Part shown: positions 2,311-9,259 of the stretch, in pieces
Numbering within the stretch: position 1 is the stretch's first letter
Layout: each line of letters begins with the position of its first letter
IMG/VR virus record: IMGVR_UViG_3300010396_000086
Span: 1 to 29,234 of that record
Direction: 5' to 3' (one strand)
Source: a virus
DNA length: 29,234 nt
Notes under the pieces: model-generated
Database searches by the model: none
The model's input: the letters and a program-made list of their open reading frames with translations, nothing else
What the model was told of the DNA's origin: nothing
Program-made: the position numbers and the translations under genes

Positions 2311-2646
2311 ATGAAACACACTTTAACATTAATCATGCTTTTTGTAGTAGTAGGAAGCTGGGGGCAGAATGCCGATACAATAAAGAAAGGATGGATACAA
2401 ATAAATGATAAAACTTGGATTCATAGTGAGCCTGAAATTACAATTACCCCAGAAAAGAACCCTAACCCAGTAGCCTATTTAACGTCCTATGGAAGGACAA
2501 TAATTGCAATTAATAGGAAATACATAATTGTATTTAATGACAGTGGAAATATTATAGGAAAAATAGCCTATAAAGGACAACTTGAAATGGGTAGTAGATA
2601 CGATTCATTTAAAACATTTACTCCTATAAACTTGGATAGCCTTTAA
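2311..2646 (+). CDS. Secreted hypothetical protein (111 aa)
   Basis: The N-terminus is a signal peptide: basic MKH, a hydrophobic core (TLTLIMLFVVVG) and a likely cleavage after SWGQ, a form common in Bacteroidota. The mature part of about 90 residues is probably beta-rich (GWIQINDKTWIHSEPEITI, then KYIIVFNDSGNIIGKIAYKG) and should lie in the periplasm or outside. No catalytic motif is seen. The gene ends tail-to-tail with the endolysin gene, the two stops overlapping by four bases, so this marks the border between the plus-strand cluster and the minus-strand late block. Confidence 0.6.
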   Translation: MKHTLTLIMLFVVVGSWGQNADTIKKGWIQINDKTWIHSEPEITITPEKNPNPVAYLTSYGRTIIAINRKYIIVFNDSGNIIGKIAYKGQLEMGSRYDSFKTFTPINLDSL

Positions 2647-3140
2647 TTAAACCCATCCACTCTTTTCAGCCATCCTTTAATAAACGTCGGCTGATTCAGT
2701 GATAAGTAATACTGCCGTCTTGCTTCTTTGTATTGATCGAATAAAGTATCTGGAGCGTTGTTTACAGCCTGCAAAGTGAGATTGCCGAATATCCCGTCCT
2801 CTGTTAGATTAAGCAGGTATTGCAGTATTTTAATAGCCTGTCCGCTTGTTACATGAAAGTCGAAAATAAGGTCGGCCAACCTCTGGCTATCTATATAATC
2901 ACCCTTTATCGCATCCCAATAATACCTCTTGTACCATTGCTTTACATCGGCCTCGAGATCGGGGATTATCTCACCATCCTGTAATGGCATATACCCTTTC
3001 AATTTCTCCCATATCGGGCATTTAGGATCATACTTTTGAGTGAGCCCTCTATAAGTAATACCTCCTTTGTCAGCGCGGTTATTGCTATACCCACCTTCAA
3101 AGGAGGCTGTTATTGGATATGAGTGTAGGAAGTCAGCCAT
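2643..3140 (-). CDS. Endolysin, glycoside hydrolase family 108 lysozyme
   Basis: This is the phage cell-wall hydrolase that cuts glycan strands of peptidoglycan at lysis. The N-terminus carries the GH108 signature FEGGYSNNRADKGGITYRG; the Glu at residue 15 is the expected catalytic acid. Residues about 85-165 (IKILQYLLNL..DGIFGNLTLQAVN) match the peptidoglycan-binding domain usually fused to this family. Total length (165 aa) fits family members. There is no signal peptide, so it needs a holin; candidates lie upstream at 4222-5000. It is the last gene of the late block, converging with the secreted protein at 2311-2646. Confidence 0.9.
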   Translation of the reverse strand: MADFLHSYPITASFEGGYSNNRADKGGITYRGLTQKYDPKCPIWEKLKGYMPLQDGEIIPDLEADVKQWYKRYYWDAIKGDYIDSQRLADLIFDFHVTSGQAIKILQYLLNLTEDGIFGNLTLQAVNNAPDTLFDQYKEARRQYYLSLNQPTFIKGWLKRVDGFN

Positions 3141-3678: not shown

Positions 3679-3861
3679 ATGCCTACTCCCAATCCTGAAA
3701 TTTGCACTACTACTGATTATGCAGATTATAGTTCTGCCTGTTCTGCAGCCGCATCTACAACAGCACCAACAGGATATAAACTGCTTACGGCTATCATACA
3801 ATGGTGCAAGGATACTCTACGGTACATACTAACGGTTATTTTCGTCTATCTTGGTAACTAA
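3679..3861 (+). CDS. Small antisense membrane protein (60 aa)
   Basis: A plus-strand frame lies in the gap between two minus-strand lysis-region genes. It has a Thr/Ala/Ser-rich N-terminal half (ICTTTDYADYSSACSAAAS) and a hydrophobic C-terminal helix (LRYILTVIFVYLGN). The leader is A/T-rich (ACTTTTATAAAAACTTAATAC). Its last 33 bases overlap the 3' end of the opposing gene. Codon use looks coding, and no minus-strand frame fills this gap, but the gene is short and in the wrong orientation for the late block, so I hold it as probable only. Function unknown. Confidence 0.45.
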   Translation: MPTPNPEICTTTDYADYSSACSAAASTTAPTGYKLLTAIIQWCKDTLRYILTVIFVYLGN

Positions 3862-4107
3862 TTTTATCACTCTATAGTGAAATAAGTCTTTTGCTATCTT
3901 GGTTTGCTCCTTATAATAATCAAGATCAGATAACGTGTCTTTACTGCCGCTTCTTGTCGTTACCGGAGATAACAATAGTATCATGAATAATATTAGGAAT
4001 CCTCTGCCCGATAAGAATTGCGTCCCTTTCGGTTCTTGCATCTGATTCGCGCCAAAAGTCCCTGTCTTGCCTGGTAGTTTCATACCGTTCATCACGTAGT
4101 TTAACAT
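3829..4107 (-). CDS. Possible outer spanin-like secreted protein, overlapping
   Basis: This frame overlaps the gene at 3941-4210 out of frame and continues 112 bases beyond it. The unique C-terminal part (KDTLSDLDYYKEQTKIAKD, then RVIKLVTKIDENNR) is clearly protein-like, so a gene ends here. A hydrophobic stretch (FLILFMILLLSP, residues 37-48) precedes it. The arrangement, a secreted small protein nested in an inner-membrane coiled-coil gene next to the endolysin, is that of Rz/Rz1 spanins. However, there is no lipobox cysteine, so it is not a standard Rz1. The start is uncertain: ATG 4107, 4041 and 3984 are all in frame. Confidence 0.5.
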   Translation of the reverse strand: MLNYVMNGMKLPGKTGTFGANQMQEPKGTQFLSGRGFLILFMILLLSPVTTRSGSKDTLSDLDYYKEQTKIAKDLFHYRVIKLVTKIDENNR

Positions 4108-4210
4108 TATCCTGGTATAACTCTATTACAGCCCATGCCAACCCTAAGATTATTATCTCCTTCGTGTACTTCTGTAATGCTTCTAAGTTTTCCTTGTCCC
4201 ATATAGCCAC
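3941..4210 (-). CDS. Possible inner-membrane spanin-like protein (89 aa)
   Basis: The protein has a short cytoplasmic head (MAIWDKENLEALQKYTK), one membrane helix (EIIILGLAWAVIELY, residues 18-32) and then a highly charged helix (NVKLRDERYETTRQDRDFW, continuing to about residue 65) likely to form a coiled coil in the periplasm. This is the layout of Rz-type inner spanins, which disrupt the outer membrane at the end of lysis. Position between a holin candidate and the endolysin, with another secreted frame nested in its 3' end, supports this. There is no sequence signature that proves it. Confidence 0.5.
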   Translation of the reverse strand: MAIWDKENLEALQKYTKEIIILGLAWAVIELYQDNVKLRDERYETTRQDRDFWRESDARTERDAILIGQRIPNIIHDTIVISGNDKKRQ

Positions 4211-4221
4211 CTCTTATCATT

Positions 4222-4737
4222 TTAGTTTTTTTCTATTTTTTCAACCCTTTTCAATAGCTCTACATATTTACTTTCCAGTTGGTCATATTCTTCTTTTGTC
4301 TTCATGCCTCTTACCTGGTTCATCGCTATAATAAATGAGATCATAACGACAACACTAACCATTGCGCATATAGCCTCAACGGCTGCGCCGAGCCAATAAA
4401 ATGCGACATATAGGTTTATTACCGCCATTAAGTGAGTAAGGCCACATAAGAAGATAAACACACCATACATCCACACAAAAGCTTTCCAGTTTCCGAACTT
4501 GTCTTTTATGTCCCTGTACACGTAAAACATCCCCATTGATATTACCATATACGATACGAATATCATTGCGTCAGATATGCTGTATAAGGCAATTAACCTG
4601 CTGTTCCCCCTCATGCAAAACGAATGAGGCATAAACTTTTCAAAAAGCTCATTGGTTGGTATATACCACGTAAGAATAGCCAGAAACCCGAGTATCAGGC
4701 TTGAATTTAGAAACCATATGGCCTTATTCCTGTTCAT
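4222..4737 (-). CDS. Ethylene-receptor-like (ETR1-type) membrane domain protein, no kinase
   Basis: 171 residues with four predicted membrane helices (about 8-26, 48-74, 86-108, 113-138) and a charged C-terminal helix (KTKEEYDQLESKYVELLKRV). Helices 2-4 match the sensor domain of plant ETR1 and related bacterial histidine kinases: ISD at 54-56 equals ETR1 Asp25, Tyr63 equals Tyr32, Ile66 equals Ile35, and FLCGLTH at 96-102 gives Cys98 and His102, equal to the copper ligands Cys65/His69. The stretch MPHSFCMRGN before helix 2 and FYWLGAAVEA before helix 4 also resemble the bacterial kinases. ETR1 Pro36 is Ser67 here. There is no kinase or GAF part; the gene stops after the coiled coil. It overlaps the holin candidate by ATGA and precedes the spanin-like pair, so it may tune lysis or act as a holin or antiholin. 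Homology is my recognition; the role is inference. Confidence 0.8.
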   Translation of the reverse strand: MNRNKAIWFLNSSLILGFLAILTWYIPTNELFEKFMPHSFCMRGNSRLIALYSISDAMIFVSYMVISMGMFYVYRDIKDKFGNWKAFVWMYGVFIFLCGLTHLMAVINLYVAFYWLGAAVEAICAMVSVVVMISFIIAMNQVRGMKTKEEYDQLESKYVELLKRVEKIEKN

Positions 4738-5000
4738 CAGTTATCTTTAAAATCCCATCCAAAGAATTTCGTACTAAAGTGTACAAGTGTATTTCCTATA
4801 AGTAGCCATTTGTCTATATGCTCTACTTGTATATTTGTTAACGGAAGTTGTGTGCTTATTAAAGCAAATAGGCCAGAGGTGTATAATATTGCTCTGAATA
4901 TCCAGTTTATCCAGTTTGGGGTAGGGTGGTTTAATTGTGCTAAACCTACTTTTATCACCTTTCCTGCATCTGCCTGTTGTGAATCTGTTAATTGTGCCAT
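4737..5000 (-). CDS. Putative holin (87 aa)
   Basis: A small protein with a hydrophilic head and two hydrophobic segments: WIFRAILYTSGLFALIST (about 33-50) and a weaker one, WLLIGNTLVHFSTKFFGW (about 65-82), ending in a charged tail (DFKDN). Size, topology and position at the head of the lysis cassette suit a holin, which permeabilises the inner membrane so the signal-less endolysin can reach the wall. Its stop overlaps the start of the ethylene-receptor-like gene (ATGA), so the two are likely co-translated. No holin family is certain, and the neighbour could share or take over this role. Confidence 0.5.
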   Translation of the reverse strand: MAQLTDSQQADAGKVIKVGLAQLNHPTPNWINWIFRAILYTSGLFALISTQLPLTNIQVEHIDKWLLIGNTLVHFSTKFFGWDFKDN

Positions 5001-7892: not shown

Positions 7893-8567
7893 TTAATTTT
7901 CAGTAACGAAAGTGTTTTGTCCATCTTCTGTTGTTATGTCATCGGCAATTTCATCCGTCAGTAAAGCATCATTTAGCCCCCATTGATACCCCTTTTCAGT
8001 ATTGTATAGTTTTACTACTGTCCTATAAGCAGATATCAAAGGCGGTGTTATCAACGCGGTATATTCAGGTATCCTTACAACAAATTCAATCCTGCCTTGC
8101 GCCGAATGCGTTGCATCAGGCGTATTTTGAGCATCCAATATTGCTATCGATGAAATGTAAACGGAGCAATTAAAAGGAGGTGTATAGCCTAATGTTCTGT
8201 AACCCGGGTTTTCAAGTATAGCGCGACACATACCGAGTATCTTATGAAGTGTTATTATTGATTGAGTGTCGCCTTGTTCGCCTGCAGTATCTTTTGCAGA
8301 AGTATAACAGTCTATGATATATACATAAGTACCATCCGCTTGTCTTGCGTCTTTATTGTCATATTCTCCTTTTAATAGAGAGACATTTATGGCCGGATAT
8401 TCTGTTTTGTCAAATGCTACAAATCGCTCTATAAATATTGTTGGATTTATATCAGGATTGCCACTTAAAGTAAATTGGTTTGCAAATTCATCGGCTAATA
8501 TTTCCCCTATCCTATCTCGGATTATCTCAAAGTTTTGAGCAGGTATTATGCCGGTTAATATTGCCAT
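7893..8567 (-). CDS. Probable tail terminator/completion protein (224 aa)
   Basis: The beginning (FEIIRDRIGEILADEFANQF), followed by a strand with FPAINVSL-like sequence (EYPAINVSLLKGEYDN) and the segment TYVYIIDCYTSA, is the usual pattern of tail-terminator proteins (lambda gpU/SPP1 gp17 type), which cap the tail tube at the head side. A beta-rich C-terminal part (GRIEFVVRIPEYTAL) fits. It lies directly after the head-tail connector gene (stop of that gene abuts this ATG) as in many phages. Assignment rests on gene order and general pattern, not on a diagnostic motif. Confidence 0.55.
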   Translation of the reverse strand: MAILTGIIPAQNFEIIRDRIGEILADEFANQFTLSGNPDINPTIFIERFVAFDKTEYPAINVSLLKGEYDNKDARQADGTYVYIIDCYTSAKDTAGEQGDTQSIITLHKILGMCRAILENPGYRTLGYTPPFNCSVYISSIAILDAQNTPDATHSAQGRIEFVVRIPEYTALITPPLISAYRTVVKLYNTEKGYQWGLNDALLTDEIADDITTEDGQNTFVTEN

Positions 8568-8939
8568 TTATTTAAAATCTCCAAGTATGCAAACGATATA
8601 TCCTATAACCTCATCTGGGTACCATTGGCGTATCATATAAGTGCGAGGTGTGCTGGTGCTATCAGTCCATGTCACTTTAACATTTTTAAGGTTCACTTCG
8701 CCACTCGCGTCTCTTACTGGGAACGATAATGTTGTTAATGCCTGCTCACTTACTGATATGCTCGCATTTTTGGCATTTGTAGCGTTCCCATCCCGATCTA
8801 TACTCAAATGATGCTTATTAGCTCTACCATTAACAGTGACGGATACAGTACCATTATCAAATGTTATGGGCTGTCCATATTCATCAGTATTAGTAGTTAT
8901 CTGTAATACATCTGCACGTATCTGGTCTAATAAACTCAT
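8568..8939 (-). CDS. Probable head-tail connector/stopper (123 aa)
   Basis: A small protein with an N-terminal helix (LLDQIRADVLQITTNTDEYG) then beta strands (GTVSVTVNGRANKHHLSID, TLSFPVRDASGEVNL, KVTWTDS) and a final segment (YMIRQWYPDEVIGYIVCILG). This matches the shape of head-closure proteins (lambda gpFII / HK97 gp7 type), which are short beta-barrels positioned between head completion and tail terminator genes. It overlaps the preceding gene by ATGA. The role is inferred from order and size. Confidence 0.5.
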   Translation of the reverse strand: MSLLDQIRADVLQITTNTDEYGQPITFDNGTVSVTVNGRANKHHLSIDRDGNATNAKNASISVSEQALTTLSFPVRDASGEVNLKNVKVTWTDSTSTPRTYMIRQWYPDEVIGYIVCILGDFK

Positions 8940-9259
8940 TGCTTTTTATTACGCTTTTTTGCTTCTTCTTTTAGTTCTTCCTGTTCTTCTTCCGGTGTTA
9001 ATGTTTTGTCTGCAGGCAGTTCTATAACTTCGCCAAGCTCTACACCTTCATCTACCAATTCTGGGTTATTATCCAGGTCTTGTTGTGTTATGGTATGCTT
9101 TACGATCTGGTCTTCTGTTATAGGCGCTATAAAACCATCCTTAACCAATATTGGCGCGTGTCCATCAGGAAAGCAGCTATCATCTACTATATCCTGCGAA
9201 TTGTAAATGCGGTTATTAAGCCCGCTTACAGAAAGTGCTATTACCTTGTATTTTGCCAT
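8936..9259 (-). CDS. Hypothetical protein in head-tail joining block (107 aa)
   Basis: The protein begins with a beta-rich N-terminal part (YKVIALSVSGLNNRIYNSQD) and ends in a strongly charged helix (TPEEEQEELKEEAKKRNKK) that is probably unstructured or coiled. It lies just after the terminator behind the major capsid gene and overlaps the connector gene by ATGA. In comparable phages this slot holds a head-completion or adaptor protein; no motif here proves that. Confidence 0.5.
   Translation of the reverse strand: MAKYKVIALSVSGLNNRIYNSQDIVDDSCFPDGHAPILVKDGFIAPITEDQIVKHTITQQDLDNNPELVDEGVELGEVIELPADKTLTPEEEQEELKEEAKKRNKKQ

Follow-up and report, generated by a model that had tools for sequence, protein, structure and literature searches.

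Stand-alone ethylene-receptor sensor domains beside phage endolysins: candidate lysis membrane proteins

Plants, cyanobacteria and other bacteria, as well as some fungi, have receptors whose front end is the ethylene-binding domain. In ETR1 of Arabidopsis, SynEtr1 of Synechocystis and AzoEtr1 of Azospirillum it is built of three transmembrane (TM) helices and carries a Cys-x3-His pair, which provides the Cu(I) ligands. Ethylene binding by ETR1 depends on a set of seven essential residues (PMC11819568), among which I35, P36, I62, C65 and H69 have been named (PMC6586836), and Lys91, the partner of Asp25, is linked to the receptor output (PMC11819568; PMC13012798). The receptor domains of this family function in dimeric form (PMC6586836).

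The window analysed here (the whole stretch of 29,234 bases, a virus record of IMG/VR) contains genes of a GpA-type terminase, a lambda-family portal, capsid protein E, minor-tail proteins and baseplate protein J, which rules out bacterial contamination. Its positions 4,222-4,737 had been described, from the sequence alone, as a kinase-free ethylene-receptor domain inside a phage lysis cassette, and these coordinates proved correct, with the gene encoded by the minus strand (stops abound on the other one). On that strand the order is a tail gene, the gene of an 87-aa protein, the sensor-domain gene, the gene of an 89-aa protein (overlapped by a 92-aa frame), that of a 149-aa protein and an endolysin gene:

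4,737-5,000, minus strand: 87-aa protein with a weak single TM segment, putative holin role, 91% identical in the sister phage L002
4,222-4,737, minus strand: stand-alone ETR1_N (ethylene-receptor sensor) protein of 171 aa (Pfam PF25487, AF2 model)
4,234-4,287, minus strand: coiled-coil heptads Y151-I168 of this protein (AF2 helix 148-170 and a/d positions)
3,941-4,210, minus strand: short helical 89-aa protein, possibly membrane-anchored, spanin-like by eye only, 80% identical in L002
3,829-4,107, minus strand: 92-aa ORF in an overlapping frame, one TM segment, 65% identical in L002
3,179-3,628, minus strand: 149-aa protein between the spanin-like gene and the endolysin, no family match in Pfam or PHROG
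2,643-3,140, minus strand: endolysin, glycosyl hydrolase 108 (GH108) with PG_binding_3 (PF05838, E 7.3e-16; phrog_315 endolysin, E 5.1e-29)

The 171-aa protein matches the Pfam family PF25487 ETR1_N ("Ethylene receptor 1-like, N-terminal domain") with an E value of 8.9e-20 and 71.2 bits against a cut-off of 27, over residues 48-142 and profile positions 2-94 of 97, which places it in the family; the similarity to ethylene receptors that had been read from the sequence is thus borne out by a strong profile match, and the same score rules out a random ORF or a wrong frame as explanations for the gene. Four TM segments are predicted, three of the ETR1_N domain and an extra N-terminal one. In the AF2 model, built from 36 window and locus sequences (mean pLDDT 86), helices occupy residues 3-24, 46-76, 84-110, 114-143 and 148-170; the domain forms a three-helix bundle with Cys98 and His102 in its second helix (84-110), and the C-terminal helix 148-170 has block pLDDT values of 94-98 and perfect a/d heptads (Y151, L154, Y158, L161, V165 and I168). 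From the modelled helices and the clean heptads we conclude that the domain is complete, that it is preceded by one additional TM segment and that the protein ends after a short coiled coil. It is indeed kinase-free: only this 23-residue helix follows the domain, without a kinase or GAF part, and an output domain (kinase, GGDEF) is absent both from the protein and from its cassette. A sequence search of solved structures gave no match, nor did Foldseek against the PDB, a set apparently without an ETR1 membrane-domain structure; against viral models Foldseek returned one significant match (E 4.8e-5) to a protein of 289 aa, the same length as gp65 of Maribacter phage Molly discussed below.

The placement in a lysis cassette stands as well, the GH108 endolysin being located 1.1 kb downstream of the sensor-domain gene, and the proposed translational coupling to the 87-aa gene is plausible in view of the TGATG overlap of the two genes. 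As for the neighbours, the labels "holin candidate" for the 87-aa protein and "spanin-like" for the 89-aa protein find no profile support, neither protein having a family match in Pfam or PHROG. The 89-aa gene shows a third-codon-position bias in comparison with L002, and the overlapping 92-aa ORF is possibly its nested partner. On the opposite strand of the lysis region lies a 60-aa ORF (3,679-3,861, plus strand; 87% identical in L002), whose differences are biased to third codon positions, so that it is probably a real small gene. The sensor-domain protein itself has no holin-family match in Pfam, PHROG or NCBIfam, holin families being numerous and not all of them modelled. As would be expected of a holin or antiholin, it is a small membrane protein encoded in a lysis cassette with an endolysin, a position recurrent in its relatives, and, apart from a doubtful antisense ORF at 2,040-2,336, the window encodes no other clear small protein with several TM segments.

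The functional residues of the domain are encoded as follows:

4,570-4,572, minus strand: codon of Asp56 (ETR1 Asp25), kept in 10 of 19 phage copies and 55 of 59 fused cellular proteins
4,537-4,539, minus strand: codon of Ser67 (position of ETR1 Pro36, one of the seven residues essential for ethylene binding, PMC6586836), placed by alignment
4,444-4,446, minus strand: codon of Cys98 (ETR1 Cys65, Cu(I) ligand), Cys in 19/19 phage copies and 59/59 fused proteins
4,432-4,434, minus strand: codon of His102 (ETR1 His69, Cu(I) ligand), His in 19/19 phage copies and 59/59 fused proteins
4,375-4,377, minus strand: codon of Glu121 (position of ETR1 Lys91, receptor output, PMC11819568), placed by alignment

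When compared with real bacterial receptors and ETR1, Asp56, Tyr63, Ile66, Cys98 and His102 are found at the positions previously claimed and align with the receptor columns; the PHSFC and FLCGLTH patterns of bacterial receptors are likewise real in the alignment. Two differences had not been mentioned before, i.e. the replacement of Pro36 by Ser67 and of Lys91 by Glu121. The numbering of the ETR1 sequence used agrees with the literature. Among the seven essential residues (D25, Y32, I35, P36, I62, C65 and H69, where we take D25 and Y32 to complete the set) six are present, and ethylene is an unlikely ligand, since Pro36, essential in ETR1, is a serine in the window protein.

The comparison of 19 phage copies with 59 fused cellular proteins separates these residues into two groups. 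Besides the two invariant Cu(I) ligands, Tyr32 and Ile35 are kept in all phage copies and each in 58 of the fused proteins, and Ile62 is kept in 19/19 phage copies. Pro36, in contrast, is retained in 6 of the phage copies versus 58 of the fused proteins (Fisher p 2e-9), Lys91 in one versus 54 (p 3e-12) and Asp25 in the proportions listed above (p 2e-4), all three p values being uncorrected for kinship. It follows that the phage proteins have retained the metal site and lost the output residues. The conservation of Cys65, and partly that of His69, is to some extent built in, because the scan patterns fixed Cys65 and one scan also fixed His69; both residues are also kept in the copies found without such bias (Molly by tblastn, a set reached through other motifs, and L132 and L133 by the family profile). 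The 19 phage copies, and likewise L132 and L133, have the Cys-x3-His pair expected of a Cu(I) protein, and no phage homologue without these two residues came to light.

A search for stand-alone domains beside phage endolysins, which the sequence-only reading had proposed, revealed recurrent copies next to endolysins of several types. Scans of viral contigs guided by profiles, and tblastn searches among cultured phages, yielded, by several routes, about 20 further stand-alone copies in phages or prophages, mostly of 120-160 aa, without an output domain and with ETR1_N confirmed where scanned; three contigs (L031, L040, L123) were excluded as bacterial-looking or carrying fused proteins. There is one copy per record in 12 of the 12 phage records checked. 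Tblastn of INPHARED with the window protein gave no match, the cultured-phage relatives being reached only via L036 and L038, and scanning viral contigs with a single protein, be it that of the window or Molly gp65, brought no new relatives, which were found by profile scans. Gp65 of Maribacter phage Molly (Molly_1; L070, 6,962-7,831) is a 289-aa protein with an ETR1_N match of E 1.5e-16, encoded between a gene for a one-TM coiled-coil protein and an Amidase_3 endolysin gene, 3 nt before the latter; the ~150 residues that follow its sensor domain have no family match. In the isolation paper this amidase is the sole lysis gene listed, and ethylene is unmentioned (PMC8776804).

In eight phages or prophages of the alphaproteobacterial type (L027-L030, L032, L039, L041 and L057) the sensor-domain gene is directly preceded by a gene for what we call the SCPG protein, and is mostly accompanied by that of a coiled-coil protein, which together form a conserved module. 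The SCPG protein has one TM segment, a periplasmic Ig-like domain and an invariant SCPG...CP pattern, and has no family match; the idea that it is a copper protein was abandoned, its model being Ig-like, not clearly cupredoxin-like, with weak structural matches. The gene order is GH108 endolysin, Rz-like spanin, SCPG protein, sensor domain and coiled-coil protein in L027-L030 and L032. In L041 a GH19 endolysin precedes the same trio, and in L039 the trio is followed by a Phage_lysozyme2 endolysin, an additional holin-like protein of this contig being below the cut-off. The prophage-like L057 of Chelatococcus has an N-acetylmuramidase, the SCPG protein and the sensor domain. The GH108 endolysin of L029 (6,282-7,142) and the GH19 endolysin of L041 (5,972-7,264) end, by eye, in a hydrophobic TM-like segment. 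Outside this module, an N-acetylmuramidase lies 1.9 kb upstream of the sensor domain in L038, and GH108 directly follows it in L033. L034 has the sensor domain, a TM protein, a coiled-coil protein, two PAS proteins and a GH25 endolysin; the two PAS-domain genes (8,108-9,212; Pfam PAS E 2e-12 and 1.3e-15) are stand-alone. In the gammaproteobacterial prophage L133 tail genes are followed by the sensor domain, a coiled-coil protein, a TM protein and an integrase-like gene (by eye). The gene of L115 is situated between the terminase and the portal, and no endolysin was recognised near the sensor-domain gene in L115, L119 and L036/L037. The separate coiled-coil partner has basic residues after its TM segment in 7 of 8 cases, and the phage copies without the extra N-terminal TM segment follow the plan of class I holins (3 TM segments, basic C-terminus).

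A recognised endolysin is located within 2.5 kb of the sensor-domain gene in 8 of the 13 lineages versus 3.15 expected (p 0.002; p 0.006 without the window) under a rough null model of uniform placement, with contigs treated as whole genomes and only recognised endolysins counted. A Fisher test limited to lineages having an endolysin (p 8e-5) was dropped as biased and replaced by this test of all 13 lineages. The neighbouring endolysins belong to unrelated types: GH108, GH19, Phage_lysozyme2, N-acetylmuramidase, GH25 and Amidase_3.

The best single argument for a lysis membrane job of the sensor-domain protein is provided by L002, the nearest relative of the cassette. Its DNA homology to the window covers 5,012-4,734, up to the start codon of the sensor-domain gene, and resumes at the last bases of this gene, over 4,230-3,623; between these blocks L002 carries genes of unrelated small TM proteins of 96 and 92 aa, i.e. 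exactly the sensor-domain gene is replaced. L002 has no ETR1_N match, its endolysin is a different one (M15 peptidase), and the replacement looks like an ordinary exchange of lysis genes. Since the 96- and 92-aa proteins have no family match, it does not prove a holin slot.

As to the cellular copies, a phage-type profile was run on 398 genomes from the order that includes Chelatococcus; the copies found lie in frames of 378-982 aa, the sole exceptions being the Chelatococcus ones, and wider genome samples contain a few short cellular copies. The SCPG partner occurs in one of 385 alphaproteobacterial genomes, that of Chelatococcus, beside the sensor domain; this genome (G016) has two pairs of SCPG and sensor-domain genes (C5:415,210-416,054 and C7:60,993-61,385), the second being broken by stops. 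Four of the short copies examined (L061, L134, L135 and L137) are directly followed by a histidine kinase gene and are hence split receptors; response regulators accompany them (L061, 907-3,438; L134, 5,693-8,156; L135, 5,391-7,528; L137, 5,651-8,152). Unlike most short cellular copies examined, the phage copies are not beside a kinase gene. On the Acaryochloris plasmids L019 and L026, ETR1_N reading frames were found where the PLSDB table lists no gene. A tree of 84 domains groups the phage copies (3 label changes versus 17.4 in shuffles), and a single phage clade is not rejected (AU p 0.48), the deeper order being unsure owing to long branches. Among close copies dN/dS is 0.06-0.25, which indicates that they are maintained under purifying selection. 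The earlier term "captured" needs some correction, the phage copies looking like an old phage lineage rather than a recent acquisition.

We consider it fairly probable that the protein is a lysis-cassette membrane protein on the ethylene-receptor sensor fold, most likely of the holin or antiholin type. Between the two options suggested by the sequence-only reading, a sensor that times lysis and a domain reused as a holin or antiholin, the balance is in favour of a lysis membrane protein, on account of the exchange with small membrane proteins and the loss of signal residues while Cys and His are kept. A true sensor without holin activity, reading copper, redox, oxygen or a small gas and signalling to a coiled-coil partner so as to time lysis or the lysis-lysogeny decision, would agree with the retention of Cys/His, Tyr32, Ile35 and Ile62 throughout the 19 copies, with the coiled-coil partner genes with cytoplasmic tails that adjoin in most phages, and with the L034 locus, which resembles receptor parts taken apart. 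We nevertheless regard it as rather unlikely, given that Asp25 is lost in 9, Pro36 in 13 and Lys91 in 18 of the 19 copies, all of them residues tied to ligand affinity and output (PMC13012798), and that the cassettes are without a kinase, a response regulator or a DNA-binding output.

Less probable still is a moron gene unrelated to lysis (serving superinfection exclusion, membrane protection or host takeover) and only riding beside lysis genes. Lysis regions often border cargo genes, the L115 and L119 genes are outside an obvious lysis cassette, and capsid relatives of the window phage among the records examined do not have the gene; against this, the gene recurs beside several unrelated endolysin types beyond chance, in the window it is inside the cassette rather than at its edge and is joined to its neighbour by TGATG, and its slot is exactly exchanged with other small membrane proteins. 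That the protein acts as a decoy, pairing with host ethylene-receptor-type kinases or diguanylate cyclases and blocking their signalling, seems very improbable: mixed dimers are possible, as the receptor domains are dimeric, but such receptors are rare in possible hosts (among the genomes searched, 28 of 385 alphaproteobacterial and 10 of 274 gammaproteobacterial ones score above the cut-off), and the phage copies, which share about 20-30% identity with cellular ones, are divergent and accompany lysis genes. Equally hard to accept is a strict ethylene receptor by which the phage senses ethylene, for, in spite of the six binding residues present, not only is Pro36 a serine here, but most phage relatives change Pro36 and half of them change Asp25.

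If the protein is a holin or antiholin, it would be made late in infection together with the 87-aa protein and form a helical bundle inserted in the inner membrane, the fold being one that dimerises in receptors. It would help to set the moment of membrane opening, which lets the GH108 endolysin act. The kept Cys-x3-His pair leads us to infer a bound metal, probably Cu(I), which could stabilise an oligomer or gate it through the metal or redox state. The mechanical partner replacing the receptor kinase may be the C-terminal coiled coil in the window protein, a role that in most other phages may fall to the separate coiled-coil protein with one TM segment. A more speculative, rather doubtful extension is that the sensor domain has an old branch specific to phages, common to those of Bacteroidota and of Proteobacteria, which serves as a metal-gated lysis clock: the state of a Cu(I) site within the lysis protein would set the opening of the membrane, and a coiled-coil partner would take the place of a kinase.

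Our search of open-licence papers found no published report of ethylene-binding domains or receptors in phages, in agreement with the earlier statement that no phage system of such type is known to have been described. Neither the domain nor the cassette is of a new kind; what appears to be new is that the two are combined in a phage family that recurs. ETR1_N recurs without its signalling part beside several unrelated endolysin types, in phages of different host phyla. Should it act as a holin or antiholin, there would be a family of holins whose descent from receptors can be recognised and whose metal site is defined, offering a handle on the open question of holin triggering; should it act as a sensor, the time of lysis would depend on a signal from a metal or a gas. 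As Molly is a cultured phage whose gene adjoins its only known lysis gene, a role in lysis is directly testable.

Among known systems, the phage protein has in common with ETR1, SynEtr1 and AzoEtr1 the three-helix sensor domain with its ligand pair, the equivalents of Tyr32, Ile35, Ile62 and Ser98 and the bacterial PHxxC motif before TM1, but it has no GAF, PAS, kinase or GGDEF domain, Pro36 and Lys91 are replaced, and its gene is in a phage lysis cassette. The split bacterial receptors likewise have a stand-alone ETR1_N protein of similar size; they differ in adjoining kinase and response regulator genes, in having Pro at the Pro36 position and in being away from lysis genes. Gp65 of the Maribacter phages Molly and Colly resembles it in lying beside the endolysin of a bacteroidote phage, in keeping Cys and His and in having Ser in place of Pro36, and is distinguished by its 289 aa with an extra C-terminal part, by Asn in place of Asp25 and by its annotation as hypothetical. 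Finally, class I holins of the lambda S type are also small inner-membrane proteins of lysis cassettes, and their three-TM plan and basic tail are shared by the three-TM phage copies, whereas the window protein, with no holin-family match, combines a conserved metal-ligand pair with four TM segments and a coiled coil.
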